NCBI RefSeq assembly: GCF_004216565.1
Contig: NZ_SGWV01000008.1
Coordinates: forward strand, 372,001-436,000
Direction: 5' to 3'
From: Sphaerotilus mobilis
GTDB lineage: Bacteria > Pseudomonadota > Gammaproteobacteria > Burkholderiales > Burkholderiaceae_C
DNA length: 64,000 nucleotides
Below the pieces are notes generated by a model, which worked only from the letters and a program-made list of their open reading frames with translations, was not told where the DNA came from and ran no database searches. The position numbers were made by a program, and so were the translations under genes. Numbering within the stretch: position 1 is the stretch's first letter; each line of letters begins with the position of its first letter. This document shows positions 9,343-48,928 of the stretch, in pieces.

Positions 9343-9790
9343 GCCGTTCGGACACATCGTGTCCGAACGGCTGGTGCCGGTGAGCCACCTTGGTCCGACC
9401 ATTCAAGAGCGTTTGATTCGATTGGGCCTGGCCCGCCTTCGGTAGGTCGGACACCCCGTGTCCGACGGGCTGGTGCCGATGGCCGCCCAACCCCGACCTA
9501 CCAAACGCGCTTGTTTCGATTGGGCCCGGCCCGCCTTCGGTAGGTCGGACACCCCGTGTTCGACGGGCTGGCGCCGATGGGCCGCCCAACCCCAACCTGC
9601 CAAACGCGCTCGTTTCGATGGGGCCCGGCCCGCCTTCGGTAGGTCGGACACCCCGTGTCCGACGGGCTGGTGCCGATGGGCCGCCCAACCCCGACCTGCC
9701 AAACGCGCTTGTTTCGATTGGGCCCGGCCTGCCTTCGGTAGGTCGGACACCCCGTGTCCGACGGGCTGGTGCCGATGGGCCTCCGAACCC
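9343..9790 (+). repeat. tandem array of five ~99-bp units with GTAG-head hairpins
   Basis: Five units start near 9343, 9442, 9540, 9639 and 9738, at a spacing of 98-99 bp. Each holds a hairpin with 9-10 bp arms (GTCGGACAC / GTGTCCGAC, three-base loop) preceded by GTAG, except the first, which is diverged (arms GTTCGGACAC / GTGTCCGAAC). The third-to-last copy has one arm change, at 9560. The rest of each unit (GGGCTGGTGCCGATGGGC and a shared tail) is also conserved, so whole units were duplicated. The GTAG head and short palindrome are those of REP elements mobilised by RAYT transposases. The array fills the space between convergent egtD and the outer membrane factor gene and contains no credible CDS. 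Confidence 0.8.
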
Positions 9791-9799
9791 CAACCTTGC

Positions 9800-25748: not shown

Positions 25749-28700
25749 TCAGATCAGCGGCGTGTTGCGCAGCAGGTCGTCCTGGGCCGGGTCCTGCGGC
25801 AGCAGGACGGCGGCGTGCAGGTCGGTGGCCGGTGCGGTCATCGAGGCGGACGCGGCGGCGTCGGCCACGGCGGTGCTGGCGTCGCCCGTTGCCGGGGTCT
25901 GCAGCAGGGCCTCGGGCGCCTCGACCAGCACGTCTTGCAGGCTCACCGGCACGCTGGTGGTGTTGGCCGCAGCGGCGCCGCTGGTGTCGGTCTGCTTGGC
26001 GAACCAGACGTCGGCCATCTGGTGCGACTGGCCGTCCGCCGTCTGGTAGCTCGACGTCAGGCCCAGCAGGTTGCCGTTGTCCACCGTCTGGCCAGCGACC
26101 GCATGCAGGTCCATCGAGACGATGCCGAGGTCGGCCAGGCTGCGCAGCTCACCGGTGTCGGTGATGCCGTCGGCGTCGCGGTCGACCCAGACCTTCAGCT
26201 CGCCGAAGGCGGCGTCAGACTGGCTGAGCTGGCCGTCGCGGTTGCTGTCGAGGTCGGCCATGGCGGCATAACCGGTGCCGGCGCGCTGGCCGTTGGCCAG
26301 TTGGGTGCCGGCGCCGAACAGCTCGCGGCCGTCGTTGATCTGGCCGTCGGCGTTGAGGTCACGCACCAGCAGGCCGTCGTTGCCGCCGACCCAGCCGGTC
26401 CGCTCGACCGAGCCGCTGGCGTCGACGTCGAAGGTCACGCCCTGGGCGGCCGAGACCGTCTGGATGCCGTTGCCGTCCAGATCCAGCACGATCGGGGTGG
26501 CCGCGATCATGGCGTCGATCTGGGCATTGCTCAGCACCGCCACGTCGGTGGTCTCGAAGGCGGCGATCTGGGCCGTCGTCATCGCGGCGATGTCGGCGGT
26601 CTGCAGCGCCACAACCTGTTCGGTCGTCAGCGCCACGACCGCATCGGTCGTCAGCTGGCTGATCTGCGTGGTCGTGAAGGCCACGATCTGAGCGGTCGTC
26701 AGCGCCTGGATCTGGTCGGTGCTGAAGGCGGCCACCAGGCTGGTGTTGAGCGCGCCGAAGTCGGCCGTCGTGATGGCGGCGATGTCACCGGTCTCCAGAG
26801 CCTGGAACTGCGTCGTCGACAGCGCGTTGAACTGCGCGGTCGTCAGCGCCACCATGTCGTCGGTGCTCAGCGCGACCAGCTGATCGGTCGTCAGCAGGCT
26901 GACCTGGGTGGTCGACAGGCCGGCGATCTGTGCGGTCGTCAGGGCGTCGATCGTGTCGGTGGTCAGCGCCTGCAGCTGGGTGCTGCTCAGGGCGTTGAGC
27001 TGGTTGCTGGTCAGCGCCGCCGCCTGTTCGGTCGTCAGGACCGCCAGTGCATCGGTGCCCAATCCGGCCAAGGCGCCGGTCTTGAGGGCGGCCAGGTCGG
27101 CCGCTTCAAGGGCCTGGACCTGTTCGGTCGTCAGCGCGCCGAGGGCGGTCGAACCCAGCGAAGCGGCCTGCACCGTCGTCAGCGCGGCGATGTCGTCGGT
27201 GGCGATGGCGGCGATCTGGTCGGTGCCCAGCGCAGCCAGCTCCGCCGTGGTCAGGGCCGCCGTCTGGGCGGTCGTCAGCGCGCTGATCTGGTCGCTGGTG
27301 AGCGCGCCGATCTGGGTGCTGGTGAAGGCGCGGATCTCGTTGGTGGTCAGCGCGGCGATGTCGTCGGTGGCGATGGCCGCGACCTGGTCGCTGGTCAGTG
27401 CCGCCACCTGGGCGGTCGTCAGCGCCGCGATCTGGGCGGTCGTCAGGGCGCCGATGCCGTCGGTGCTCAGGCCTTGCAGCGCAGCGGTCTTGATGGCCGC
27501 GAGGTCAGCGGTCTCCAGCGCCTGGACCTGATCGGTCGTCAGCGCCGCCACCTGTGCAGAGCTGAGCGCCGCGGCTTGCGCGCTGGTCAGCGCGGCCACC
27601 TGGGCGGTGCCCAGCGCGGCCACCTGGTCGCTGCCGAGGGCGGCCACCTGGGTGGTGCTCAGGCCACCGATCTGGCTGGTCGTCAGGGCGCCGATCTGGT
27701 CGCTGGACAGGGCGCCAAGCTGGCTGCTGCCCAGGCTGCGGATCTGAGCGGTGCCGAGCGCGGCGATGTCGTCGGTGGCGATGGCGGCGACCTGGGCGGT
27801 CGTCAGCGCGGCCACCTGGGCGGCGGTCAGCGCAGCGGCCTGGGCGGTCGTCAGGGCTTCCACGCCGTCGGTGGTCAGGCCCTGCAGCGCGGCGGTCTTG
27901 ATGGCGGCGAGGTCTGCGGTCTCCAGCGCCTGGACCTGGTCGGTCGTCAGTGCCCCCACCTGCGTGGAGGTCAGCGCGGCGGCCTGCAGCACGCTCAGGG
28001 CGGCGATGGCACCGGTCGACAGCGCGGCGATCTGGTCGCTGCCGAGCGACACGACCTGGGTGGTCGTCAGGCCAGCGACCTGGGCGGTCGTCAGCACGGC
28101 GACCTGATCGCTGGACAAGGCGCCCAGCTGGGCGGTGGTCAGGCTGCGGACCTGCGCACTCGACAGGGCGGCGAGGTCGTCGGTGGCGATCGCGCCGATC
28201 TGGGCGGTCGTCAGCGCGGCCACCTGGACCGATGTCAGCGCCGCCGCCTGTGCGGTGGTCAGGGCCTCGACGCCTTCGGTGCTCAGGCCTTGCAGCGCGG
28301 TGGTCTTGATGGCGACGAGATCAGCGGTCTCCAGCGCCTGGACCTGGTCGGTCGTCAGCGCGCCGACCTGGGTCGAACTCAGGCCAGCGGCCTGCAGCGC
28401 CGTCAGCGCGGCGATGTTGCCGGTCGACAGGGCCGCGATCTGGTCGCTGCCGAGCGACGCCAGCTGGGCCGTGCTCAGGCCGGGGATCTGGGCGGTGGTC
28501 AGCGCGGCGATCTGGTCGGTCGACAAGGCGCCGAGCTGGGCGGTGGTCAGGGCACGGATCTGTGCCGAACCCATCGCGGCCAGGTCATCGGTGGCGATGG
28601 CCGCGACCTGGCTGGTCGTCAGCGCCGCCACCTGGGCGGTGGCCAGCGCGGCGACCTGGGCGGTGCTCAGCGCGTCGATGCCTTCGGTGCCGAGGGCCTG

Positions 28701-31700
28701 CAGGGAAGCGGTCCGTATGGCCCGCAGGTCAGCGGTTTCCAGCGCCTGGACCTGGTCGGTCGTCAGCGCCGCCACCTGGGTGGAGGTCAGCGCGGCGGCC
28801 TGGGCGCTGCTTAGGGCGGCCACGTTGGCGGTCGACAGCGCAGCGATCTGGTCGCTCGCAAGCTGGGCGATCTGGGTCGTGCTCAGGCCGGTCACCTGGG
28901 TCGTCGCCAGTGCGGCGATCTGGTCGGTCGACAAGGCACCGAGCTGGGCGCTGGTCAGGCCGCGCACCTGGGCCGAACCCAGCGCGGCGAGGTCGTCGGT
29001 GGCGATGGCGGCGACCTGGCTGGTCGTCAGCGCCGCGATCTGGCTGGAGCTGAGGGCGGCGGCCTGGGCGGTGGTCAGCGCATCGATGGCCTCGGTGCCC
29101 AGCGCCTGCAGGGCGGCGGTCTTGATGGCGCGCAGGTCGGCGGTCTCGAGGGCCTGGACCTGGTCGGTCGTCAACGCGGCAACCTGGGCCGAGCTGAGCG
29201 CGGCGGTCTGGAGCGTGGTCAGCGCGGCCACATCGTCGGTGTCGAGCGCGGCGACCTGCTCGGTCGTCAGCGCGGCAACCTGGGTCGTCTTCAGCGCGGC
29301 GATCTGGGCCGAGTCGAGGGCGGCCACGACGTCGGTGGCCAGCGCTTGCAGCGCGGCGGTGCGGATGGCCGCCAGATCAGCGGTCTCGAAGGACTGGATC
29401 TGGTCGCTGGTCAGTGCGGCCAGCTGGGTCGAGGTCAGCGCACCGGCCTGCAAGGAGGTCAGCGCGGCGATGCTGTCGGTCGACAGCGCGGCGATCTGGT
29501 CACTGCCAAAGGCGGCCACCTGGGCGGTGGTCAGCGCGGCGACCTGGCCGGTGGTCAAGGCGCCGATCTGGTCGCTGCCCAGCGCGGCGAGCTGGGTGCT
29601 GCCCAGCGCACGGACCTGGGCCGAGGTCATCGCGGCCAGGTCGTCGGTGGCGATCGCGGCGATCTGCGCGGTGGTCAGCGCAGCCACCTGGGCCGAGGTC
29701 AGCGCGGCCATTTGGGCCGTGCCGAGCGCCCCGATGGCATCGGTGCCGAGCGACTGCAGCACGCTGGTACGGATGGCACGCAGGTCGGCGGTCTCCAGCG
29801 CCTGGACCTGGTCGGTCGTCAGGGCGGCCACCTGGTCAGACGTGAGCGCGGCGGCCTGGGCGGAGGTCAGCGCGGCGATGTTGTCGGTCGTCAGCGCCTG
29901 CACCTGATCGCTGGCCAAGGCGGCGATCTGCAGGGTGTTCAGACCCGGGATCTGGGCGGTGGTCAGGGCGGCGATCTGGTCGCTCGACAGCGCCGCGAGC
30001 TGGGCCGTGCCGAGGGCGCGGATCTGCGCGGTGCCCATGGCGGCGAGGTCATCGGTGGCGATGGCGGCCACCTGCTCGGTCGTCAGGGCCGCCACCTGGG
30101 CGGAGCTGAGCGCGGCGATCTGGGCGGTGCTCAGGGCTTCGATCGCGTCGGTGCCCAGCGCTTGCAGCGAGGCCGTGCGGATGGCGCGCAGGTCGGCCGT
30201 CTCCAGCGCCTGGACCTGGGTGGTCGACAGCGCGGCGACCTGGTCGGAGCCGAGCGCAGCGGCCTGCGTGGAGGTCAGCGCGGCGACGTTGTCGGTCGTC
30301 AGCGCCGCGATCTGGTCACTCGACAACGCGACGATCTGGCGCGTCGTCAGGCCGGCCAGCTGGCCGCTGGTCAGCGCCTCGATCTGGCTGGTGCCGAGCG
30401 CGGCGATCTGGTCGGTGGTCAGCGCACGGATCTGCGCGGTGCCCATGGCGGCGAGGTCGTCGGTGGCGATGGCGGCCACTTGCGTGGTGGTCAGAGCAGC
30501 GACCTGGGCGGACGTCAGCGCCGCAACCTGGTCGGAGCTCAGGGCGTCGATGCCTTCTGTGCCAAGGGCCTGCAGCACCGACGTGCGGATGGCCCGCAGG
30601 TCGGCGGTCTCGATGGCCTGGATTTGATCGGTCGACAGCGCGGCGATCTGGGTCGAGGTCAGGGCGGCGGCCTGGGCCGAGGACAAGGCCGCGATGTGAT
30701 CGGTGCCAAGCGCGGCGATCTGGTCGCTGCCCAGTGCGGCGATCTGGCTGGTGTTGAGGCCGGCCATTTGGCCGGTCGTCAGGGCGCCGATCTGTTCGGT
30801 CGACAGGGCACCGAGCAACGTCGTGCCAAGGGCGCGGATCTGGGCGGTGCCGAGCACGGCGAGGTCATCGGTGGCGATGGCCGCGACCTGGGCGGTCGTC
30901 AGCGCGGCCACCTGGGCGGAGGTCAGCGCGGCGGCCTGGGCCGTGTCGAGGGCCTGGATGGCGTCGCTGCCGAGCGCCTGCAAGGCGACGGTGCGCAGGG
31001 CCCGCAGATCGGCCGTCTCGAGGGCGACGATCTGGTCGGTCGTCAGCGCGGCGGCCTGGGCCGAGCCGAGGGCGGCCACCTGGGCGGACGTCAGGGCGGC
31101 GATGTTGTCGGTGGCCAGCGCGGCAATCTGGGCGGTGTCGAGCGCGGCGATCTGGCCGGTCGTCATGCCGGCGACCTGGCTGGACGTGAGCGCGCCGATC
31201 TGGTCGGTCGACAGGGCGCCGAGCTGGCCGGTGGTCAGGGCGCGGATCTGGGTCGAGGTCATTGCCGCCAGGTCATCGGTGGCGATGGCGCCGACCTGGG
31301 TGCTGGACAAGGCGGCCACTTGCGCGCTGCTCATCGCAGCGATTTGGGCCGTCGTCAGCGCGTCGATCGCGTCGGTGCCGAGGGCTGCCAGCGAGGCGGT
31401 GCGGATGGCGCGCAGGTCCGCCGTCTCCAAGGCCTGGACCTGGTCGGTGGTCAGCGCGCCAACCTGGCTGGAGCTGAGCGCTGCCGCCTGCTGCGAGCTG
31501 AGCGCGGCGATGTTGTCGGTGCCGATCGCGGCAACCTGGGCGGTCGTCAACGCCGCCACCTGGGCGGTCGAGAAGGCGCCAACCTGGGCGGTGCCGAGCA
31601 CGGCGATGGCGTCGGTGCTCAGGGACTGCAGCGCGGCGGTGCGGATGGCGCGCAGGTCAGCCGTTTCGAGCTGCTGGACCTGGTCGCTGGTCAGCGCGGC

Positions 31701-34307
31701 GACCTGGTCGCTGCTGAGGGCGGCGGCCTGGGCCGAGGTCAGCGCGCCGATGTTGTCGGTCAGCAAGGCCTGGATCTGGCTGGTGCCGAGCGCGGCGATC
31801 TGGAGGGTGTTCAGGCCGGCCAGCTGGGCGCTGGTCATCGCGGCGATCTGGTCGGTGCCGAGCGCGGCGATCTGGGCGGTGGTCAGCGAACGCATCTGCG
31901 CGCTGGTCATCGCGGCGATGTCGTCGGTGGCGATGGCGGCCACCTGGGCGGTCGTCAGGGCGGCGACCTGGGCGCTGTTGAGCGCGGCGATCTGGGCGGT
32001 GGTCAGGGCGTCGATGCCCTCGGTCGTCATGGCCTGCAGCGCAGCCGAGCGGATGGCGCGCAGGTCGGCGGTCTCCAGCGCCTGGACCTGGTCGGTCGTC
32101 AGCGCCGCCACCTGGGCCGAGGTCAGCGCCGCCGCTTGTGCGGAGGTCAGCGCGGCGATGTTGTCGGTCAGCAGGGCCTGCAGCTGGTCGGTTCCCAGCA
32201 AGGCCAGCGAGCGGGTCGTCAAGCCAGCGGCCTGGGTGCTGGTCAGGGCGGCCAGCTGGTCGGTGGTCAGGGCGGCGATCTGGCTGGTCGTCAGCGCATT
32301 GAGCTGGGCGCTGCCCATGGCGGCAAAGGCTTCGGTGCCGAGCGACTGGATCTGGCCGGTCGTCAGCGCCGCCACCTGGGCATTGGACAGGCCGGCGGCC
32401 TGGGTCGAGCTGAGGGCGGCGACGCCGTCGGTGCTGAGCGCCTGGATGGCGGTCGAGCTCATGCCACGCAGGTCGGTCGACTCCATCGCGGCGATCTGGT
32501 CGGTGCTGAGCGCACCCACCTGGGTCGAGTTCAGGGCGGCGACCTGGCGGCTGTTGAGCGCCACGATCTGGTCGGTCGTCAAGGCGGCGATCTGGGCGCT
32601 GCCCAGCGCGGCAACCTGAAGCGAGGTCATGCCCGCCACCTGCACGGTGCCGAGCGCGGACACGCCGTCGGTGCTCAGGGCCTGGACCTGGGTGGTGCTC
32701 AGGCCGGCGACCTGGGCGCTGGTCAGCGCGGCGGCCTGGTCGGTCGTCAGCGCGCCGATGGCGTCGGTGTCCAGGTTGCGGACCGCTGCGGTGCGCATGG
32801 CCTGCAGGCCTTCGGTGGTCAGGGCCTGGACCTGGGCGCTGCCGAGTGCCGCCGCCTGGGCGGTGGTCAGCGCAGCGGCCTGGTGAGTGCCCAGCGCGGC
32901 GATGTCATCGGTGGCGATGGCGGCCACCTGGGTGGTCGTCAGAGCTGCCACCTGGGCGCTGGTCAGGGCTGCGGCCTGTTCGGTCGTCAGCGCATCGACG
33001 CCGGCGGTCTGCAGGCCGCGCAGGGCGACGGTCCGGATGGCCTGCAGATCGGCCGTCTCGACCGCCTGGACCTGTGCGGTCGTCAGGGCGGCCACCTGGT
33101 CGCTGTTGAGCGCGGCCGCCTGGGCGGTGGTCAGCGCGGCGATGTCATCGGTCTCGACCGCGGCGATCTGGCTGGTCGTCAATGCAGCGACCTGGCGGGT
33201 CGCGAGCTGCCCGACCTGCTCGGTCGTCAGCGCCACGATCTGGTCGGTCGACAGGGACCGCAGCTGGTTGGTCGTGATCGCCTGGACCTGCGAGGTCGTC
33301 AGGGCGGCGATGTCGTCGGTGGCGATGGCGGCGATCTGGGTCGTCGTCAGGCTGGCGACCTGGCCGGAGGTCATCGAGGCGACCTGGTCGGTCGTCAGCG
33401 CCTCGATCGCGGCGGTGGCCAGCCCGCGCAGCGCCGTGGTGCGCACGGCGGCGAGGTCTTCCGTCTCGATGGCCTGGATTTGTTCGGTGCCCAAAGCGCC
33501 GAGCTGGGTCGACGTCAGCACCGCCGCCTGCGCGGTGGTCAGCGCGGCGATGTCGTCGGTGGCGATCGCGCCAACCTGGGTGGTCGACAGCGCGGCGATC
33601 TGCTGCGTGCGCAGGCTGGCAACTTGATCGGTCGTCAGCTCAACGATCTGGTCGGTGGCCAAGGCGCCCAGCTGGGTCGTCGTGATGGCCTGCACCTGCG
33701 AGGTCGTCAGCGCGGCGATGTCGTCGGTGGCGATGGCGGCGATCTGGGAGGTCGTCAGCGCGCCGACCTGGCGGGTGGTCAGCGCGGCGACCTGGTCGGT
33801 CGTCAGCGCGACGATCGCGTCGGTGCCCAGCGAACGCAGCGCGGTCGTGTTGAGGGCCGCGAGGTCTTCCGTCTCGATGGCCTGGACTTGGTCGGTGCTC
33901 AGCGCCGCCAGCTGTGCGCCGGTCAACGCGGCGGCCTGTGCGGTGGTGAAGGCGGCGATCGAGGCGGTGCCCAGGGCCCCGATCTGCGTGCTGGTCAACG
34001 AGGCGATCTGGCTGGTCGAGAAGCCCGCGATCTGCTCGGTCGTGAAGGCGGCGATCTGGTCGGTCGTCAGCGCCTGCATCTGACGGGTGTTGAGCCCGCG
34101 CAGGTCGGCGGTCTCCATCGCGGCAAGGGCCTCGGTGGTGATCGCGGCCAGATCGGCCGTCTCGATCGCAGCCACCTGGCTCGAACTCAGCGCCGTGATC
34201 TGGTCGCTGGTGAACGCGGCCCAGTCCTCGGTCGTCAGGGCGGCGATCGAGCGGGTCGACAGGCCGGCGACCTGGGAGGTGGTAAGGGACGGGACGATGG
34301 TGGCCAT
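25749..34307 (-). CDS. giant secreted octapeptide-repeat protein, probable type I secretion cargo
   Basis: 2852 residues. From residue 1 to about 2595 it is one unbroken series of about 324 octapeptides in perfect phase, with consensus TTxQ[VI]xAL; ATDDIAAL and ETADLAAI are variant units. They are grouped in larger 17-unit (136-residue) blocks. The C-terminal 250 residues hold four Asp-rich, EF-hand/dockerin-like calcium motifs (DLDGNG, DLNADGQIND, DLDSNRDGQLS, DRDADGITD) and the PIVLDLDGNG opening seen at the ends of large type I substrates. There is no signal peptide, no RTX GGxGxD repeat and no apparent cysteine. AGGAAA precedes the ATG. Likely a secreted adhesin or fibre; nearby GT41-like genes and its Ser/Thr richness suggest O-glycosylation, which is inferred. 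Confidence 0.88.
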   Translation of the reverse strand: MATIVPSLTTSQVAGLSTRSIAALTTEDWAAFTSDQITALSSSQVAAIETADLAAITTEALAAMETADLRGLNTRQMQALTTDQIAAFTTEQIAGFSTSQIASLTSTQIGALGTASIAAFTTAQAAALTGAQLAALSTDQVQAIETEDLAALNTTALRSLGTDAIVALTTDQVAALTTRQVGALTTSQIAAIATDDIAALTTSQVQAITTTQLGALATDQIVELTTDQVASLRTQQIAALSTTQVGAIATDDIAALTTAQAAVLTSTQLGALGTEQIQAIETEDLAAVRTTALRGLATAAIEALTTDQVASMTSGQVASLTTTQIAAIATDDIAALTTSQVQAITTNQLRSLSTDQIVALTTEQVGQLATRQVAALTTSQIAAVETDDIAALTTAQAAALNSDQVAALTTAQVQAVETADLQAIRTVALRGLQTAGVDALTTEQAAALTSAQVAALTTTQVAAIATDDIAALGTHQAAALTTAQAAALGSAQVQALTTEGLQAMRTAAVRNLDTDAIGALTTDQAAALTSAQVAGLSTTQVQALSTDGVSALGTVQVAGMTSLQVAALGSAQIAALTTDQIVALNSRQVAALNSTQVGALSTDQIAAMESTDLRGMSSTAIQALSTDGVAALSSTQAAGLSNAQVAALTTGQIQSLGTEAFAAMGSAQLNALTTSQIAALTTDQLAALTSTQAAGLTTRSLALLGTDQLQALLTDNIAALTSAQAAALTSAQVAALTTDQVQALETADLRAIRSAALQAMTTEGIDALTTAQIAALNSAQVAALTTAQVAAIATDDIAAMTSAQMRSLTTAQIAALGTDQIAAMTSAQLAGLNTLQIAALGTSQIQALLTDNIGALTSAQAAALSSDQVAALTSDQVQQLETADLRAIRTAALQSLSTDAIAVLGTAQVGAFSTAQVAALTTAQVAAIGTDNIAALSSQQAAALSSSQVGALTTDQVQALETADLRAIRTASLAALGTDAIDALTTAQIAAMSSAQVAALSSTQVGAIATDDLAAMTSTQIRALTTGQLGALSTDQIGALTSSQVAGMTTGQIAALDTAQIAALATDNIAALTSAQVAALGSAQAAALTTDQIVALETADLRALRTVALQALGSDAIQALDTAQAAALTSAQVAALTTAQVAAIATDDLAVLGTAQIRALGTTLLGALSTEQIGALTTGQMAGLNTSQIAALGSDQIAALGTDHIAALSSAQAAALTSTQIAALSTDQIQAIETADLRAIRTSVLQALGTEGIDALSSDQVAALTSAQVAALTTTQVAAIATDDLAAMGTAQIRALTTDQIAALGTSQIEALTSGQLAGLTTRQIVALSSDQIAALTTDNVAALTSTQAAALGSDQVAALSTTQVQALETADLRAIRTASLQALGTDAIEALSTAQIAALSSAQVAALTTEQVAAIATDDLAAMGTAQIRALGTAQLAALSSDQIAALTTAQIPGLNTLQIAALASDQVQALTTDNIAALTSAQAAALTSDQVAALTTDQVQALETADLRAIRTSVLQSLGTDAIGALGTAQMAALTSAQVAALTTAQIAAIATDDLAAMTSAQVRALGSTQLAALGSDQIGALTTGQVAALTTAQVAAFGSDQIAALSTDSIAALTSLQAGALTSTQLAALTSDQIQSFETADLAAIRTAALQALATDVVAALDSAQIAALKTTQVAALTTEQVAALDTDDVAALTTLQTAALSSAQVAALTTDQVQALETADLRAIKTAALQALGTEAIDALTTAQAAALSSSQIAALTTSQVAAIATDDLAALGSAQVRGLTSAQLGALSTDQIAALATTQVTGLSTTQIAQLASDQIAALSTANVAALSSAQAAALTSTQVAALTTDQVQALETADLRAIRTASLQALGTEGIDALSTAQVAALATAQVAALTTSQVAAIATDDLAAMGSAQIRALTTAQLGALSTDQIAALTTAQIPGLSTAQLASLGSDQIAALSTGNIAALTALQAAGLSSTQVGALTTDQVQALETADLVAIKTTALQGLSTEGVEALTTAQAAALTSVQVAALTTAQIGAIATDDLAALSSAQVRSLTTAQLGALSSDQVAVLTTAQVAGLTTTQVVSLGSDQIAALSTGAIAALSVLQAAALTSTQVGALTTDQVQALETADLAAIKTAALQGLTTDGVEALTTAQAAALTAAQVAALTTAQVAAIATDDIAALGTAQIRSLGSSQLGALSSDQIGALTTSQIGGLSTTQVAALGSDQVAALGTAQVAALTSAQAAALSSAQVAALTTDQVQALETADLAAIKTAALQGLSTDGIGALTTAQIAALTTAQVAALTSDQVAAIATDDIAALTTNEIRAFTSTQIGALTSDQISALTTAQTAALTTAELAALGTDQIAAIATDDIAALTTVQAASLGSTALGALTTEQVQALEAADLAALKTGALAGLGTDALAVLTTEQAAALTSNQLNALSSTQLQALTTDTIDALTTAQIAGLSTTQVSLLTTDQLVALSTDDMVALTTAQFNALSTTQFQALETGDIAAITTADFGALNTSLVAAFSTDQIQALTTAQIVAFTTTQISQLTTDAVVALTTEQVVALQTADIAAMTTAQIAAFETTDVAVLSNAQIDAMIAATPIVLDLDGNGIQTVSAAQGVTFDVDASGSVERTGWVGGNDGLLVRDLNADGQINDGRELFGAGTQLANGQRAGTGYAAMADLDSNRDGQLSQSDAAFGELKVWVDRDADGITDTGELRSLADLGIVSMDLHAVAGQTVDNGNLLGLTSSYQTADGQSHQMADVWFAKQTDTSGAAAANTTSVPVSLQDVLVEAPEALLQTPATGDASTAVADAAASASMTAPATDLHAAVLLPQDPAQDDLLRNTPLI
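26791..33871 (-). repeat. 408-bp higher-order repeat within the giant gene
   Basis: The ETADL-type octad recurs at exactly 408-bp steps (17 octads, 136 residues): coordinates 27103, 27511, 27919, 28327, 28735 and 29143, then 29383 after a 240-bp step (10 octads), then 29791, 30199, 30607, 31015 and 31423, then 31663 after another 240-bp step, then 32071 and 32479. Toward the gene start it recurs at 33055, 33463 and 33871. Octads in the same slot of neighbouring blocks are more alike than octads within a block, so growth was by duplication of 17-unit blocks. Confidence 0.85.
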
Positions 34308-37782: not shown

Positions 37783-37858
37783 GCCGGCATAGCTCAGTTG
37801 GTAGAGCAGCGCATTCGTAATGCGAAGGTCGGGGGTTCGACTCCTCTTGCCGGCACCA
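37783..37858 (+). tRNA. tRNA-Thr (anticodon CGT)
   Basis: 76 bases. Acceptor arms GCCGGCA and TGCCGGC close the molecule, the D arm is GCTC/GAGC, and the anticodon loop is TTCGTAA with CGT at its centre. The T arm has GTTCGACTC, and CCA is encoded at 37856-37858. A G-A mismatch at the top of the anticodon stem matches that of E. coli thrW. It reads ACG threonine codons. Confidence 0.96.
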
Positions 37859-40175: not shown

Positions 40176-41002
40176 CGATGCCGCGCCGCCGCCCAGCCAC
40201 GCCCGCGCTGGGCCTGAAGGGCTCGCTCACGCTGGCCATGGGCGATCAGGACCTGGCCGGCGCGGTCCGCATGGGCCTGTTGCAGGCGGTCGCCGAACAG
40301 GGCTCGATCACACAGGCCGCCAAGGCCTACGGCATGAGCTACAAGGCCGCCTGGGACGCGATCGACGCGATGAACACGCTCTCCGGCACGCCGCTGGTCG
40401 AACGTGTGACCGGCGGCCGTGGTGGTGGCCGCACCCGCCTGACCGACCACGGCCAGCGCCTGCTCGAACGCTACGGCCAGATCCAGGCGGTGCACCAGCG
40501 CTTCCTGGACCTGCTGGACCTTCGGGCACTCGATCTGGCGCAGGACTTCTCCATCCTCCAGGCCCTCAACATGAAGACCAGCGCACGCAACCAGTGGGTC
40601 GGCAGCATCGCGGCGATCCGCGCCGGGGCCGTCAACGACGAGGTCGAGCTGGACCTGGCCGGCGGCCAGCGCCTGTCGGTCATCGTCACCCGAGAGAGCA
40701 CCGAGGCGCTGGCCCTGCGCCTCAAGCAGACGGTGATCGCGCTGGTGAAGTCCTCGTCGGTGATGTTGGCGACCGGGCTGTCCAGCGGGCCGGCCCGCGT
40801 CTCGACCCGCAACCACCTTCACGGCAGCGTGCGCACCATCCGCCCCGGCGCGGTCAACGCCGAGGTGATCGTGGACGCTGGCGGACTCGCCATCGTCGCC
40901 ATCGTCGACCAGCACGCCATCGCCGACCTGGGCCTGCAGCCCGGCAGCGCCGTCAGCGCACTGGTCAAGCCGTCGGACGTGATCCTCGCCACGGTCGCCT
41001 GA
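40172..41002 (+). CDS. modE: molybdate-responsive regulator ModE
   Basis: 276 residues. A LysR-like winged helix is near residues 34-100 (GSITQAAKAYGMSYKAAWDA, IDAMNTLSGTPLVERVTGG), then two mop/TOBE molybdate-binding domains (TSARNQWVGSIAAIRAGAVN and TRNHLHGSVRTIRPGAVNAE). It binds molybdate and represses mod genes; the likely target is the inverted repeat at 38022-38045. It overlaps the modC stop by four bases (ATGA), an order in which the regulator is inside the operon it controls. Confidence 0.95.
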
Positions 41003-41032
41003 ACGACCACGGCCCGGCACGCCCGGGCGGCG

Positions 41033-41470
41033 TCAGCCCTTGTTGCCCAGCATGCCCAGCAGGCCGCCGAGCGAGGACAGGTCCAGACCGCCACCGGCTT
41101 CGGGCAGTTGGCCGCCCGGCGTCAGGCCGTCGATGACCTGGGGCAGCAGGCTGGCGAGCTGGCCGCCGACCGCGTCGGGCGACAGGCCCAGCGACTGGGC
41201 GATGCCCTGCACCTGGCTGCTGCCCAGCACGGCCTGGATCTGCTCGGCCGAGATCGGCAGGTTCTGGCCGGTGCTGATCCAGGACTGGATCACCCCGCCC
41301 AGGCCCTGCTGCTCGAAGGTCGAGACCAGACCCTGGATGCCGCCTGTGGCGGGGTTGTTGAGCAGGCCGCCGATGGCCTCGATCAGACCGCCCTGTGCAT
41401 CGGCGCTGGCGCCGGCGCCTTGCGTGACGGCGCCCAGCAGCTGGCCGGCGACGGAATCAAAAAGTCCCAT
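41033..41470 (-). CDS. YidB/DUF937 family protein
   Basis: 145 residues. The start MGLFDSVAGQLLGAVTQGAG and the repeated GL-rich helices (GLIEAIGGLLNNPATGGIQG, LGGVIQSWISTGQNLPIS, LGLSPDAVGGQLASLLPQVI) match the YidB family of soluble helical proteins with unknown role. It ends convergently 30 bp from modE. An AGGGAAAACC stretch before the ATG may serve as its ribosome site. Confidence 0.88.
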   Translation of the reverse strand: MGLFDSVAGQLLGAVTQGAGASADAQGGLIEAIGGLLNNPATGGIQGLVSTFEQQGLGGVIQSWISTGQNLPISAEQIQAVLGSSQVQGIAQSLGLSPDAVGGQLASLLPQVIDGLTPGGQLPEAGGGLDLSSLGGLLGMLGNKG

Positions 41471-41518
41471 GGTTTTCCCTCGGTTGGGTTGAAGCTGCGC
41501 TTATAGCAGCCGCCGACG

Positions 41519-44500
41519 TCAGGCCTGCGGGCCTGCGGTCGGCGGACGACGGCGCAGCGTCAGCACCACCGGGCCGGGCGGGCCGTCCAGCGGCAGGCGC
41601 AGCCGCGCCTGCAAGTCCTCGACCGACGGGGTCTCGGCCTGGATGACGCCCATCCAGCCGTCGCGCCCGCTGCCCTTGACGGCATAGAGCGCCGCATCGG
41701 CCACGTTGAGCACCTGCTGCCAGTCCAGCGCCCGGGGCCACACGGGCGCCAGCGGCAGGCAGGCATAGCCGATCGAGCAGGTCTTGCTCAGGACGCTGCC
41801 GTCGTCGAGCACGAAGGGCCGGTCGGCCACGGCCGCGCGCGTGCGCTCGGCCAGCAGTTCGGCACCGGCCCGCGAGGTGCCGACGGCGACGACCAGGAAC
41901 TCCTCGCCGCCCCAGCGCACCAGGTGATCGCCCGCGCGGAAGACCTGCTGCAGGCGTGCGCGCATCTGGCGCAGCACGGCATCGCCGGCGGCATGGCCGT
42001 GCTGGTCGTTGACTTCCTTGAAGTGGTCGATGTCGACCAGGAAAAAGACCAGGTCGGCGTCCTCGCCCAGCGGCGTGCCATGCAAGCGATGGTTGTCATG
42101 GCGGCGGATCGCCTGCGCCACCAGCGCGTCGATCTGTTCGGTCAGGTAGCGGCGGTTGTGCAGGCCGGTCAGCGGGTCGACCAGGCTGGCGGCCTCCAGC
42201 GCGGCAGAGCGTTGCTGCAACTCATGCGACATGGTTTCCAGCGCGGCGGTGCGCTGGCGCACCAGCGCCTCAAGTTCATCATGACGCAGGCGCAGCGCGC
42301 GGGTGCGCAACTGCCAGGCCAGGCTGGCAGCGGCCAGCACCAGCAGCACGGCCACCACCCCGAAGGCCCAGGTCTGCCACCAGGACGGCTCGACCCGCAG
42401 GCGGATCGCCAACTCCTGGGCGCTCCAGACCCCGCTGCGGTTGGTGGCCTGCACCCGCAGCAGGTAGTCGCCCGGCCAGAGGTTGCCGTAGCTGGCCACG
42501 CGCAGGTCGGCGCGGGTGTCGAGCCAGTCGTCGTCATGACCCTCCAGGCGATAGCGGTAGCGCAGCCGCCGTGATTCGCTGAGGTCGAGCGCGGCGAACT
42601 CGACAGCCAGATCGCGTTCGCCGGACGCCAGCTTCAACACCGCCGGCAAGGGCCCCGTCACCTGTGGCTGACCATGGATGCGCAGGCTGGTGACCACCAG
42701 CGGCGGCTGGTCGGTCGATCGGTCCCAGGCCTCGGCACGCACCGCCAGCAGGCCCTTGGTGCCGCCGAACAGCAGCCGGCCATCGGGCAGGACGCCCTTG
42801 ACGCGGAAGCGGCCGTTGCCGATGCGCACGCCATCGACAGCGGTCAGCGTGTCGATGCGATCGGCTTGCGGATCGTGCACATGCAGATGGGTCCAGATGC
42901 GCCCGCGCCGGTCCTGCAACAGGTTGCTGCCAAAGGGCTTGCCCACGATGCCCAGGCGCTGGCTGACCCGGTCGAAGCGGGCCCGGCCATCGGGTCCGTC
43001 GGGCCCTTCTGTCATCCGGTGCAGGCCGGCCACGGCGGTGTCGACCCACAGCACGCCCTGCGCATCGAACAGCAGGTCGATGACGACGGGGCTGCCCAGC
43101 CCATGGCCCTCGGCGGCAAGGACCGGAAGCAGCCTCGCGCCGCCGGGCTGCACCTGATGCAGCCCCTGCAGGCCACCGACCCAGAGCGAGCGGTCCGGTG
43201 CTTCTGCCAGCACATAGACGTCGCCGCCGAGCGGCACACCATCGCTGCGCAAGACGGCGGCCAGCGCGGTGGCGTCCGCATCGAGGCGATGCAGACCGCC
43301 CTGCGCCCCGACCCAGAGGGTGCCACCGGGGCCGACACGCAGCGCATGAACAAGGCCTGCGCCGTGCACGACGCTGCGGCGCACCTGCCCAGCCGCATCG
43401 AGCAGGATCAGGCGCGTGCCGGTGGCCAGCCAGGTCGACCCGGCCCCCGCTTCGGCCAGCGCCACGACGGTTTCCCGGGCACCGGTCGGCGTCCCCGGGT
43501 CGACATTGACCCGCCGGCTCAGCCTCAGGTCGGCGTCCAGCACGCTCACGCCTTCGTCCAGCGTCGAGACCCAGACCTGACCATCGGGGCGCACCAGCAG
43601 GCCCCGCACATCGACCTCGCGCGGCCGTTGTCCGAGGGCCGGCGCGATGCCCACCAGGGTGATGTCGCGGTTGGCCGGGTTGTGGCGCTGCAGGCCCAGG
43701 CCGATGCCACCGATCCAGACCCAGCCGGCGCGGTCGACGATCAGGCTGGTCACCTCGTCGGCCGCCAGGCCGCCGACCTGTCCGGGCTCGTGGCGCAAGG
43801 AAGCGAGCGGCCGTCCATCGGCGGCGTGCAGGTCGATGCCATTGGCACGTCCGACCCAGACCGTGCCGTCGCGGGCCTGCGCCAGGCTGGTGACGGGCGC
43901 CCCGTGGGAGCGTCCCAGGCCGTCGACCAGGCGTTGCGTGCGCAGCGGACCACGCCCGCCGTCGACAAGCAGCAGGTCGCCTTCGCGCGTGCCGGCCCAG
44001 ATCCTGCCTTGCGCATCTTCCAGCAGGGCCTGCACGGTGCGCGCCGGCCCGTCGGCCGCGCCGGGGCCGGGCAGCGGCACGGCCTCGACGCGTTCCGCGC
44101 CAGGCAAACGCCGGCTCAGTCCCCGCCAGGTGCCCACCCAGAGCACGCCGTTGCGGCCGAACAGCAGCGCCTCGACGCGGCCATCGGGCAGACCGGCGTC
44201 ATCCAGCCGCCGCGCCGCGCCGGTCGACAGGTCGATGCGCACAAGCCCCTCGCCGCGGTAGCCGACCCAGATCGCGCCGTCGATGTCCTCGGCCAGGGCC
44301 TGGATCTGCGGCAGCGCACGCGCGGGGGCATTGGGGGCATCGGGGGCGGCCACCTGACCCATGGACGGTTCGGCATCGACGGCGATCGGCCACCGCTTCA
44401 AGCGGCCGCTGGCGGGGTCATGGACCGCCAGACCCTGCGACTCGGTGCCGACCCACAGCCGGCCATCACGCGCCGGGAGCAAGGCCCGCACCCAGCCGAC

Positions 44501-44791
44501 GCTGCGCCGGGCCGGATCGCTGTCTGGCAGCTCCTGGGCCCGGAACTCGATGCCGTCGTGACGGACCAGGCCGTCACCGGTCGCCACCCAGAGGAATCCA
44601 TGCCGGTCCTGGGCCAGCGCGGCCACCACATCGCGGGCGATGACATCGGTCCCCACGGATTCGATGAGCGGCGCCGGGCTGGCCGCCAGCGTCGCGCCGG
44701 GCCAGCCAGCGGCCAGGGCGCACAGAACCGTCAGCAGTCCTTGCACCAGCCCGAACCGGCACAGCGCGAGCCACAGAACGTGCGAGGACAT
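41519..44791 (-). CDS. periplasmic propeller sensor with diguanylate cyclase output
   Basis: 1090 residues. A signal-like hydrophobic start (VLWLALCRFGLVQGLLTVLC) is followed by two-component-regulator-type beta-propeller repeats (about 45-700, e.g. DGRLWVGTESQGL and HGFLWVATGDGL). Next come a Y_Y_Y domain near 725-790, a membrane helix near 805-830, and a C-terminal GGDEF domain with motif WGGEEF near 960. The RxxD inhibitory site (RAGD) is present five residues before the active site, so product feedback is expected. It should make c-di-GMP in response to a periplasmic ligand, which the propeller cannot reveal. It lies 38 bp downstream of the GGDEF-EAL gene, on the same strand. Confidence 0.9.
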   Translation of the reverse strand: MSSHVLWLALCRFGLVQGLLTVLCALAAGWPGATLAASPAPLIESVGTDVIARDVVAALAQDRHGFLWVATGDGLVRHDGIEFRAQELPDSDPARRSVGWVRALLPARDGRLWVGTESQGLAVHDPASGRLKRWPIAVDAEPSMGQVAAPDAPNAPARALPQIQALAEDIDGAIWVGYRGEGLVRIDLSTGAARRLDDAGLPDGRVEALLFGRNGVLWVGTWRGLSRRLPGAERVEAVPLPGPGAADGPARTVQALLEDAQGRIWAGTREGDLLLVDGGRGPLRTQRLVDGLGRSHGAPVTSLAQARDGTVWVGRANGIDLHAADGRPLASLRHEPGQVGGLAADEVTSLIVDRAGWVWIGGIGLGLQRHNPANRDITLVGIAPALGQRPREVDVRGLLVRPDGQVWVSTLDEGVSVLDADLRLSRRVNVDPGTPTGARETVVALAEAGAGSTWLATGTRLILLDAAGQVRRSVVHGAGLVHALRVGPGGTLWVGAQGGLHRLDADATALAAVLRSDGVPLGGDVYVLAEAPDRSLWVGGLQGLHQVQPGGARLLPVLAAEGHGLGSPVVIDLLFDAQGVLWVDTAVAGLHRMTEGPDGPDGRARFDRVSQRLGIVGKPFGSNLLQDRRGRIWTHLHVHDPQADRIDTLTAVDGVRIGNGRFRVKGVLPDGRLLFGGTKGLLAVRAEAWDRSTDQPPLVVTSLRIHGQPQVTGPLPAVLKLASGERDLAVEFAALDLSESRRLRYRYRLEGHDDDWLDTRADLRVASYGNLWPGDYLLRVQATNRSGVWSAQELAIRLRVEPSWWQTWAFGVVAVLLVLAAASLAWQLRTRALRLRHDELEALVRQRTAALETMSHELQQRSAALEAASLVDPLTGLHNRRYLTEQIDALVAQAIRRHDNHRLHGTPLGEDADLVFFLVDIDHFKEVNDQHGHAAGDAVLRQMRARLQQVFRAGDHLVRWGGEEFLVVAVGTSRAGAELLAERTRAAVADRPFVLDDGSVLSKTCSIGYACLPLAPVWPRALDWQQVLNVADAALYAVKGSGRDGWMGVIQAETPSVEDLQARLRLPLDGPPGPVVLTLRRRPPTAGPQA

Positions 44792-44829
44792 GAGGGAACC
44801 TGTACCGCTTCGGTTGTTTGCCCCGCAGT

Positions 44830-47313
44830 TTAGGAGTGTCCGCAGACCGCCAACAGCTCGTTCAAGGGCATCGGCCGGCCGAACAGGTAGCCCTGGAAGC
44901 GCTCGCAGCCGTGCTGCCGCAGGAAGGCGAGCTGATCGGCGGTCTCGACCCCCTCGGCGATGACCTCGAAACCGAGCTGCCGACCCAGTGCGATCACGGT
45001 GCGCACGATGGCCGATTCGCTGGCTCCGTCGGGCAGGCCATGCACAAAGCCACGATCGATCTTGAGCTGGTCCAGCGGCAGGCGCTGCAGGTAGGCGAGC
45101 GACGAATAGCCGGTGCCGAAGTCGTCCAGCGAGAAGGTCACGCCGAGTGCCTTGAGCGTGGCCATCTTCTGCGCGATGACGCCCAGATCACGCGCGAGCA
45201 TGCTTTCGGTCAGTTCGAGCTTGAGCCGCGTCGGGTTGGCCCCTGACTGGCGCAAGGCATCCACCACCTGGTTGACAAAGTCGGGGTGGTGGAACTGCCG
45301 GGCACTCACATTGACCGCCATGGTCAGCGCCGCCGTCGCGTCGTCCCGGGACCAGCTCGCGAGGATGTCGCAGGCCTTGCGCAACACCCAGGGACCGAGC
45401 CTGAGGATGTAGCCGCTGCTCTCGGCCACGGCGATGAACTGGGCGGGCGAGACCGATCCGCGGGTCGGGTGGTTCCAGCGCAGCAGCGCCTCGACACCCA
45501 CCATCACGCCACGCGCATCGACCTGCGCCTGCAGATGCAGGCTCAGTTCCTCGCGGGTGATGCTCTGACGCAGGTCGGCTTCCAGCTCGGCCTGGCTCAC
45601 CAGATGAGCCTGCAGTTGCTGGTCGAAGAAGCGGAAGTCGTTGCGGCCATCGGCCTTGGCCTGGTACATGGCCGAATCGGCCCGGCTCAGCAGGTCATCG
45701 GCGTTCAACGGCGCGTCGCCAAACAGCGCCACACCCATGCTGGCCGAACAAGCGTGCTCGCGGCCGTCGATCACGCACGGTGCCTGCAGGGCCTGCAGCA
45801 GGTGGCGACAGGTGTCGCGCACATCGGCCGAAGCGGCTGCCACATCGGCCGACAGACCGGTCAGCACGGCGATGAACTCGTCGCCACCGAGGCGGGCCAC
45901 AAAGGTGCCTTCGGGAACGTGTTCGACGATGCGGCGTGCGAACTCGATGAGCAGGCGGTCCCCGCTGCGGTGACCCCAGTTGTCGTTGATGGCCTTGAAG
46001 TTGTCGAGGTCGATCAGGATGACCGCACCGAGCCGGCGATGTTCGAGGGCGCGGTCCAGGATGCCAACGATCTCGGTGACGTAGTGGGTCCGGTTGGGGA
46101 CCTGCGTGAGGCTGTCGAAATAAGCCAGTTGCTGGACCTTGCCCTGGGCCTCGCGCAGCGACGCCTCGCTGGCCTGCAGCGCCCGGAAGGCCCGTTCGCG
46201 CTCGGTGATGTCGCGGATGATGACCAGGAAGGCCTTGCGACCCGCGGCATCGAAGGCCGAGATCGACGCCTCGATCGGGAAGACCTCGCCATTGGCGCGC
46301 AGAGCCGTCAGGCCCGACAGGGTGCCCATGGCACGCGGTGCACCGCTGAGTTCCCCGAAGCGGGCGACGAACCCGGCATGACCCGGCCGCGTCGACAGGG
46401 GCAGCAGCACGTCCAGCGTTTCGCCCAGCATGTCCTCGGTCGTCCGGCCGAACATGGCCTCCGCCGCCGAGTTGAAAACGATGATGCGCTGGGACTGGTC
46501 GATGCTGATGATCGCGTCCTTGGCGGTGTCGATGAGCCCGGTCAGGCGCTGCTCGCTCTCGCGCAAGGCGGTGTTGCTGGCCTCGGCGCGATCGAGCGCA
46601 TCCTGGAGCTGGGCCTGTACCGCCATCAGCTCGGCGTTCTTCTGCCGCGTGGTGCGCAACTGGCGCAAGGCCAGCAGTCCGAGTGCCCCGACCAGCGCGG
46701 CCAGGGCCAACGAACTCGCGCCGGACAGCACCGCCTGCTCGCGCAGCTGCTGCACCCGCGCCAGCGCCTCTTCGTTCTGCAGGGTGTTGATGTTGAGGAC
46801 GACCTCCTGCAGCGGCGCGGCCATGTCCTCCAGCGCCCGGCGCAGGTCGCGCAAGCGGGCCTCGTCATAGAGCGGCGGGCGATCCCGGTCATGGAAGTAG
46901 GTGTCGCCCGCCTGTGCAAACGCTTCCATGCGCTCGAACAGCGGACGGTTGCGCGGCGCGCGGAACTCCTCGCGCGGTCCGGACCCCGCACGCATGATCT
47001 CCAGCCGGCTGATGATCACCTCGTAGCGCAGCAGGACCTCGTCCATGACGGCAGGATCGCCGCGCGTGAGCAGCGCCTCGTTGAGCTTGGCGATCATCTT
47101 GTAGCGCTCGGCCTGCAGCTGGAACAAGTCCCACTCGACGCCGGCACGACTGAGGCTGACGGTGGCCTCGAAGCGCTTCCATTGGTTGTACTGCAGGCCG
47201 CCGATGCCCAGCACCAGCACGACCACCAGCGCCGACAGCGCCGGCTGCCAGAAGCGCCGCGCCGTCGCAGCACGTCCGACACGCCGCAGTCGGGCAAAAA
47301 GACCCTGGGTCAT
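44830..47313 (-). CDS. membrane GGDEF-EAL protein, DcpA-like partner of a pterin-binding protein
   Basis: 827 residues. Two membrane helices (near 20-42 and 205-228) bracket a periplasmic sensor of about 160 residues. A PAS domain (about 251-370), GGDEF (RLGGDEF near 475; no upstream RxxD) and EAL (VGVEALLRW near 606) follow. EAL catalytic residues are present: [26 protein letters not shown] and VIAEGVET. Both cyclase and phosphodiesterase activities are therefore possible. Its ATG overlaps the stop of the upstream Tat-exported molybdopterin-fold gene (ATGA, 47310-47313). This pairing is that of the Agrobacterium PruR-DcpA system, where pterin-bound PruR sets the balance of the two activities. 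Confidence 0.88.
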
Positions 47314-47870
47314 CGGACCTCGATCTCTTTGACCTGCCAGATCGAACGCGAGTGGTAGAGGTCGTTGCGAACCTCCGGCACGTCGTCGTAGGGAAAGATC
47401 AGGAACAGCGGCCCCTTGTCGCGCACGGACAGTTCGACGCCATCGGCACGACGGGCCAGGATGGGCCGGTACGGCAGCACCTCGCCCAGTGGCATGCGGA
47501 CCTGGTAGTCGTTGAGGGCCGTCATCTGGGCGATCTGGCCGGCCGCTCCGGCCTGGGCCAGCACATCGGCCAGCAAGGGCCCGGTGAAGACGATCAGCCC
47601 CTTGTGCCAAGGCGTGCGGGTGCGCACGGTCTGCACCGGCAGCGCATCGAGCATGTCGGCATCAAACAGGTGGCGGGCAGGCGCATCCGGCACGTTCGGA
47701 TGCTTCAGGACGCCCCGGACGGTGAGCATCACCCGCCCCTTGGGCGGCCCGGCCTGAGCCGAGGCGAGGTCATGCCCAATCAGCCCCGCTGTTGCGCCGG
47801 CCAGCAGGCCGATGAAACGGCGCCTCGCCCCGGATGGGCCGCGCGTCTTGTCTGTCGTGTCATCGCTCAT
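47310..47870 (-). CDS. PruR-like periplasmic pterin-binding protein (sulfite-oxidase fold)
   Basis: 186 residues. The start at 47870 (MSDDTTDK) is followed by [18 protein letters not shown], a twin-arginine-like signal. The mature domain has the short molybdopterin oxidoreductase fold ([62 protein letters not shown]). It lacks the cysteine that ligates molybdenum in true oxidoreductases. Proteins of this kind encoded just before a GGDEF-EAL gene bind pterins and regulate it (PruR of Agrobacterium). The frame extends 39 codons upstream, but the ATG chosen gives a proper signal sequence. Confidence 0.78.
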
Positions 47871-48037
47871 CGTGTCGGCACCGATCCCAGCACTGCTTAA
47901 GGTAATCCTCAGAGTGTCCCGGACCTGTCTCGGGCCGGCCACGCAGGGTTGCCCGAAGCAGGGGCCGGAGCGTGACGGAATCATCACGAGGACCGATGCA
48001 GGTCAAGAGTGGGGCCGATCAGCCCCGCCGATCGGTG

Positions 48038-48874
48038 TCAGCCCGCTTGACCGAACTGAAAAAGTCGCCGTGGCGTGTCCCACAGCAGCCGGCGCCGATC
48101 GGCCGGATCGGGCCACCAGCGCTCGACCAGTCGCAGCAGCGGGCCCATGTCCAGCCGCTCGCCAGCCCGCAGAAAGGGCCAGTCGCTGGCCCACACGCAG
48201 GCGTCCAGCCCGTAGGCATCGACGAGGGCGCGAACATGTGGCTCGGCATCGTCGTAAGGCCAGGGGCCGGCCGAGTACTTCTGGTGGCCCGAGAGCTTGA
48301 CCACCGCCCTGCCACTGCGGGCCAGGTCCAGCACGGCCTGGAAACCCGGCTGCTGCAGGCCGCGCGACGGCACCGGCCGGCCGGCATGGTCGATCAGGAT
48401 GCGTGCGCCGCTGTCCAGCAGCAGCGGAGCCAGGCCCACCATCTGGTCGTCGGTGACCTGGGCTTGGATGAACAGGCCGAGATCGGCGAGGTGGCGCAGC
48501 ATCGGCGCGCTGTCGAGGTAGTGGTCCACGCCATGGATCGTGGCGTTGAAGGCCACGCCAACCACGCCGGCTTGCTGCAGCCGCTGCAGTTCCTCGCGGC
48601 TGGTGTCGTTGCGGACCACCGCGATGCCCTTGTAGCGCCCGCCACTGGCGGCCAGCGTGTCCAGCAGGCAGCGGTTGTCCAGCCCGTAGCCCGAGTTCGG
48701 CCCGACCACCAGCGCATGACGGATGCCGTAGCTGTCCATCACCAGCCGGTGCTGGGCCAGCGTGCCGATCTCCTGCCCCGCCGGGCGGTAGGCGACATCC
48801 GCCGCATAGGGGTGCCGGACGGGGTCCAGCACATGGTTGTGGCAGTCGATCTTGGGCTCGTCGAAGATGTTCAT
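48038..48874 (-). CDS. amidohydrolase family 2, LigI/2-pyrone-4,6-dicarboxylate hydrolase-like
   Basis: 278 residues from the ATG at 48874, with AAGG six bases upstream; a TTG four codons earlier also fits the frame. The protein opens with KIDCHNHVLDP (metal-binding HxH), then YGIRHALVVGPNSGYGLDN, GVVGVAFNATIHGVDHYLD, ARILIDHAGRPVPSRGLQQP and the catalytic Asp in ACVWASDWPFL. This is the COG3618 / LigI-like group that hydrolyses lactone rings, in keeping with the gallate dioxygenase four genes upstream. Substrate could be 2-pyrone-4,6-dicarboxylate or another aromatic ring-cleavage lactone. Confidence 0.82.
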   Translation of the reverse strand: MNIFDEPKIDCHNHVLDPVRHPYAADVAYRPAGQEIGTLAQHRLVMDSYGIRHALVVGPNSGYGLDNRCLLDTLAASGGRYKGIAVVRNDTSREELQRLQQAGVVGVAFNATIHGVDHYLDSAPMLRHLADLGLFIQAQVTDDQMVGLAPLLLDSGARILIDHAGRPVPSRGLQQPGFQAVLDLARSGRAVVKLSGHQKYSAGPWPYDDAEPHVRALVDAYGLDACVWASDWPFLRAGERLDMGPLLRLVERWWPDPADRRRLLWDTPRRLFQFGQAG

Positions 48875-48928
48875 GTCCGCCTTCAAGGGGATGTCATGGC
48901 GGGCCCATGACCCAGGGCCCGCCCGTCA

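Follow-up and report, generated by a model that had tools for sequence, protein, structure and literature searches.

Does an overlapping pair of genes in the betaproteobacterium Sphaerotilus mobilis encode a pterin-responsive switch of c-di-GMP metabolism like that of PruR and DcpA in Agrobacterium tumefaciens? The pair lies in a window of 64,000 nucleotides (contig NZ_SGWV01000008.1, positions 372,001 to 436,000), in which an earlier note had recognised the Agrobacterium gene order. As described in the available part of a published review, PruR-DcpA systems comprise a secreted PruR with no Mo-ligating Cys and with a Trp/Tyr/Asn site, and a coupled downstream gene whose product has a WX7E domain together with GGDEF and EAL domains; the same source reports a survey of more than 5500 pairs (PMC13259868). 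In the window, the pruR homologue (47310..47870) and the dcpA homologue (44830..47313) are both on the minus strand, with dcpA directly downstream. The PruR stop and the DcpA start share the four bases ATGA (47310..47313, minus strand), confirming both the gene order and the overlap that had been noted and suggesting that the two genes are translationally coupled.

The product of the upstream gene is a putative secreted pterin-binding protein. It had been described as short and cysteine-poor, and with 186 aa (about 170 aa are expected for PruR) and no Cys at all it fits that description. When compared with the PDB by phmmer, it matched four sequences at E ≤ 1, all of the pterin-binding-protein set. 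The best of these was 7kos/7kou, crystallised as "Pterin Binding Proteins" (E = 9.3e-33), followed by 7rkb (3.3e-30), 7kom, titled Oxidored_molyb domain-containing protein (3.3e-21), and 7kp2 (1.7e-17). The last is the structure of Vibrio cholerae PruR, according to the portion of the review at hand (PMC13259868). Both 7kp2 and 7kom are homologous to the window PruR over the pterin-binding fold, but are more distant from it than 7kos. The proposed Tat signal also finds support: the N-terminus carries ARRRFIG, a twin-arginine motif of Tat type as judged by eye, and its two arginines (R16 and R17) are invariant among four aligned PruRs. Its fold is assigned by homology to these solved structures; an AlphaFold model of PruR built from 3 sequences had a mean pLDDT of 43.7.

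The pterin site of Agrobacterium PruR is given in the available review text as Asn102, Tyr104 and Trp160 (PMC13259868). In the alignment these residues correspond to N120, Y122 and W178 of the window protein, each shifted by 18, and the Tyr and the Trp are 56 positions apart, as they are in the 7kos alignment. Among 95 PruRs (the window protein and 94 relatives), W178 is conserved in all 95 and N120 in 92, while Y122 is conserved in 91 and replaced by F in the other four.

An alternative is that this protein is a true periplasmic molybdopterin oxidoreductase of the SUOX/MsrP-like type which overlaps a c-di-GMP gene by chance. The earlier note had assigned a molybdopterin fold, and this holds as a remote similarity to the PF00174 molybdopterin oxidoreductase model; its score of 18.9 bits is below the Pfam gathering cut-off of 24, however, whereas pterin-binding structures match at 9.3e-33. 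Proteins of this kind are often annotated as molybdopterin-dependent oxidoreductases, as stated in the review text available (PMC13259868). Against a catalytic role, the absence of Cys leaves no thiolate ligand for Mo, and among solved structures its close relatives all bind pterin. In addition, the two strongest PF00174 matches of the genome are on other contigs, and the profile search that found them passed over the window PruR. We therefore regard an oxidoreductase as highly improbable. Since the PF00174 search did not pick up the window protein, searches with family models under-count PruR; an NCBIfam search of the protein gave nothing at E ≤ 1.

The downstream gene encodes a protein of 827 aa with PAS, GGDEF (141.5 bits) and EAL (245.7 bits) domains in Pfam. 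Two hydrophobic segments (19-residue windows starting at about 20-25 and 193-201) point to the order TM, periplasmic helical WX7E domain, TM, PAS, GGDEF and EAL. The GGDEF motif (residue 476) is intact, as are the EAL motifs EALLRW (608), NVSARQF (668), ELTES (700), DDFGTG (730), LKID (750) and EGVET (787), so that the description of a membrane PAS-GGDEF-EAL protein with its EAL residues in place is accurate. GGDEF proteins can carry an inhibition site, RxxD; it was sought in DcpA and is absent (PEGT). The periplasmic region between the TMs comprises about 150-160 residues, compared with ~190 in the consulted part of the review (PMC13259868), and the WX7E motif, WDLFQLQAE, is found near its start at residue 61. 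The motif recurs in DcpA of Leptothrix discophora and in a second system of the S. mobilis genome. An AlphaFold model of the sensor region including the membrane segments is all helical (mean pLDDT 77.7). This model had no PDB match at E ≤ 0.001 by Foldseek (best 0.044), and the sensor sequence had chance-level matches only (best E 0.2).

The homology to 7kos, the lack of Cys, the N/Y/W site, the overlap, the WX7E motif and the intact GGDEF and EAL domains together support the proposed identity of the pair as PruR-DcpA, with the qualification that no dedicated PruA could be identified. The Agrobacterium pair shares with it the gene order, an exported PruR with no Mo-ligating Cys, the Trp/Tyr/Asn site, a periplasmic WX7E domain and intact GGDEF and EAL domains, as far as the review text at hand describes it (PMC13259868). 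Two features set the window apart. Its DcpA contains a PAS domain, which that text does not report for the Agrobacterium protein; and the Agrobacterium genes form a two-gene operon, whereas here a propeller-GGDEF gene and a YidB-like gene follow at gaps of 38 and 48 bases (PMC13259868).

It is very probable that the pair is PruR-DcpA and acts as follows, this being the best explanation of the sequence. PruR would be exported, probably by Tat, and its ligand would be a pterin in reduced form, most likely of the tetrahydromonapterin type. We infer that PruR carrying its pterin contacts DcpA, a predicted dual synthase and phosphodiesterase, at the helical WX7E domain in the periplasm, and that this contact biases the GGDEF-EAL part of DcpA towards c-di-GMP breakdown. 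Without pterin, the balance would shift to c-di-GMP synthesis. The PAS domain, located between the membrane and GGDEF, may act as a second, cytoplasmic input.

In a diverged version of this scheme, the ligand of PruR would differ from the Agrobacterium pterin, being a pterin that is exogenous or oxidised or else a different small heterocycle, and DcpA would serve mainly as a cyclase. Its appeal comes in part from the matter of pterin supply. PruA, the pteridine reductase that supplies the pterin, is characterised by TGX3RXG and YX3K in the part of the review available (PMC13259868). The S. mobilis genome has 10 FolM-like matches at E ≤ 0.001. In the best of these (C5:505624), glycine replaces the pteridine-reductase arginine (TGGSRGIG). 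The second-best, an SDR at C3:554216, has the arginine (TGAARRVG) together with YTLSK and is followed by a FolB-family gene (C3:555090). In NCBIfam its best match is a generic SDR equivalog, and the models for pteridine reductase and for dihydromonapterin reductase are under cut-off. The genome encodes two FolB-family proteins, both scoring under the cut-offs of all aldolase and epimerase equivalogs; on this basis no FolX-type epimerase can be clearly recognised.

If the candidate SDR served as PruA, its distribution might follow that of PruR. It was found (E ≤ 1e-40, best 16 or fewer candidates per genome) in 40 of 47 PruR-positive and 88 of 103 PruR-negative genomes of the family (Fisher p = 1.0), where PruR-positive means E ≤ 1e-15 (47/150) and the negatives include 15 genomes with weaker PruR matches (E ≤ 0.001). 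The SDR is thus equally common with or without PruR, and its presence gives no support for a PruA role. A FolM-like search, motifs, NCBIfam and co-distribution together identified no dedicated PruA in the genome. Of the monapterin synthesis genes that the earlier note had recommended looking for, the genome offers a candidate SDR beside a FolB-family gene. The usual other user of tetrahydromonapterin is the pterin-dependent aromatic hydroxylase (PF00351); none was detected in the genome, in a search whose control was positive in 1 of 14 genomes (Caulobacter).

These results favour a diverged pair to the extent that no dedicated PruA is identified and the SDR candidate is distributed independently of PruR. 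Vibrio cholerae has two pairs and no PruA, as reported in the review text at hand (PMC13259868), and synthesis by DcpA is possible given an intact GGDEF and no RxxD site. On the other hand, the pterin-site residues are all conserved and the EAL motifs are intact, and we consider the diverged version unlikely. The reading as a pterin-responsive PruR-DcpA pair is retained in what follows.

The gene after dcpA had been reported to encode a propeller-GGDEF protein, and it does so at 41519..44791 on the minus strand, 38 bases downstream of dcpA. Pfam and a TM window give the order Reg_prop propeller, Y_Y_Y, TM and GGDEF; the motif is GGEEF, with RxxD upstream (RAGD). After a gap of 48 bases comes the YidB-like gene (41033..41470, minus strand; PF20159, 72.8 bits). 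On the other side, the gene upstream of pruR (48038..48886, same strand; PF04909) encodes an amidohydrolase and is probably a flank outside the module. A promoter scan of 40900-48200 gave 0 promoter-like sites, which is weak evidence, and a terminator scan gave 2 sites versus 2.0 expected. From the gap and the gene order, the propeller gene is likely the third gene of an operon. Its product, a diguanylate cyclase, would probably be made together with the pair and supply c-di-GMP upon another periplasmic signal.

The same order is found in L. discophora CCM 2812, which belongs to the Sphaerotilus/Leptothrix group of the Sphaerotilaceae (NCBI). Its genes run amidohydrolase (92% identity), an extra GGDEF-EAL gene, PruR (65%), DcpA (71%), propeller (71%) and YidB (69%), so that the order from PruR to YidB is conserved at 65-71% identity. 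The extra gene (L067:3166-5745), between the amidohydrolase gene and pruR, combines a GGDEF-EAL part with an N-terminus that looks solute-binding-like by eye; the window lacks this gene. The contrast between 92% for the amidohydrolase and 65-71% for the signalling genes indicates that the signalling set has diverged fast at a site (41033-48886) that is itself conserved. Comparison by eye of the DNA upstream of pruR in the window and in L. discophora revealed no clear conserved block. PruR at E ≤ 1e-10 is present in 13/13 genomes of the genus, two of them under 90% complete. Among these 13, the 65%-identical PruR type is limited to S. mobilis and L. discophora, and the propeller protein at E ≤ 1e-30 occurs in exactly the same 2/13.

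Might the propeller gene instead stand outside the module, as a neighbour that is unrelated to the pair and has a promoter of its own? Relatives of the propeller part, sought in 150 genomes of the family at E ≤ 1e-40, are present in 15 including S. mobilis (33 matches in all). Among the single best-matching loci of the 14 other genomes (32 matches, 18 of them outside this one-locus-per-genome survey), none has PruR or an EAL-bearing DcpA within flanks of ~1.5 kb, a distance that in the window arrangement takes in the EAL end of DcpA and leaves PruR outside. In one family genome, G082, a PruR-DcpA pair coexists with the closest of these propellers (49%), the two lying on separate contigs. As far as loci were read, the three-gene arrangement is therefore seen only in two congeneric genomes, and its order may reflect common descent only. 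These observations speak for a neighbour. They are countered by the gap of just 38 bases, by an order that persists despite 65-71% identity next to a flank at 92%, by the coincidence of propeller and 65%-type PruR in the same two genomes and, weakly, by the lack of promoter-like sites. An unrelated neighbour appears somewhat unlikely, though it deserves serious consideration. The arrangement fits either an operon that originated in this lineage or plain common descent of neighbours. The propeller gene is predicted to be co-transcribed with the pair, and the locus may affect attachment.

PruR itself also occurs beyond the genus. In a sample of 150 family genomes it occurs in 62 at E ≤ 0.001, 47 of them at E ≤ 1e-15; in an order sample it occurs in 31/399 at 1e-20, and in a phylum sample in 28/398 at 1e-25, each count including S. 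mobilis. Partners were classified with regular expressions, mostly on 1.5 kb flanks, at 95 PruR loci; these comprise the best 30 or fewer matches per search after removal of repeat genes, and so lean towards the best matches. The downstream gene encodes a histidine kinase in 67 and a GGDEF protein in 16, including the window; 12 were assigned to neither. By the same kind of search WX7E was found in 12/16 GGDEF partners, 49/67 kinase partners and 2/12 other loci, and so is not universal. At two loci (L130 in G795 and L133 in G565), the PruR match has one TGA inside; these are possible pseudogenes or match-end artefacts.

A tree of the PruRs needs 4 changes of partner type, at least 2 of them forced by well-supported branches, compared with a shuffled mean of 14.9; most PruR lineages therefore stay with one type of partner. 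The window PruR groups with that of L. discophora (100/100), and the two then join the PruRs of two further genomes of the family, G044 and G082, along with a single kinase-linked row (99/91). The PruRs of G044 and G082 are thus the nearest after L. discophora and are likewise GGDEF-linked. Their DcpAs are shorter, however (664 and 669 aa), the match to window DcpA skips the PAS region, and in stretches of 8-9 kb the propeller query matched only via a GGDEF domain.

S. mobilis also encodes a second PruR (G000:C5:30680), 46% identical to the one in the window; given the placement of the latter on the tree, the two are not recent duplicates. This gene (locus L047, G000:C5:21000-40000, at about 9678-10187) precedes one for a histidine kinase that has WX7E and, by eye, receiver-like sequence. 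The predicted proteins have the PruR-DTB layout, in which PruR is paired with a WX7E histidine kinase. As outlined in the available review text, PruR-DTB uses the same PruR family and the same periplasmic domain type as the window pair, but its output is phosphotransfer, whereas the predicted output of the window pair is c-di-GMP turnover (PMC13259868). Several PruR systems in one taxon have already been reported, according to the same text (PMC13259868).

An attractive suggestion of the earlier note was biofilm control, based on a nearby giant fibre locus. That protein is probably the one encoded at 25749-34307 on the minus strand, whose 2852 aa are mostly ALTTAQ repeats (PF20080, with 86 matching stretches). 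Its gene lies some 7 kb past the propeller gene, and this proximity is all that joins the two; no sequence evidence ties the ALTTAQ-repeat protein to the PruR-DcpA genes, and the suggestion is not sustained. A tRNA gene at 37783-37855 (plus strand) is the sole Rfam match of the window at gathering score. Literature searches on Leptothrix and c-di-GMP found neither term in titles and no abstract with both, and literature devoted to PruR, DcpA or the PruA pterin pathway was sparse among the matches listed.

A broader and distinctly speculative reading, which we rate as doubtful, is that the locus works as a push-pull unit. Pterin-gated PruR-DcpA with its PAS domain would be co-expressed with the propeller cyclase, so that a secreted pterin would oppose a second periplasmic signal on one local c-di-GMP pool, while in the same cell a phosphorelay would be fed by the second PruR. 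If there is no dedicated PruA, the pair would read the pterins of neighbours and not its own.

The sequence supports a PruR-DcpA pair that is predicted to be an ordinary instance of a known system. Relative to the review scheme, it adds a PAS domain, a propeller cyclase encoded after the pair and a coexisting PruR-DTB system, which make it an interesting instance and not a new kind. The pterin/c-di-GMP pair is now seen in the Sphaerotilus/Leptothrix group of Betaproteobacteria. With separate PruRs for c-di-GMP and phosphorelay outputs in one genome, S. mobilis offers a good case for asking whether both read the same pterin.
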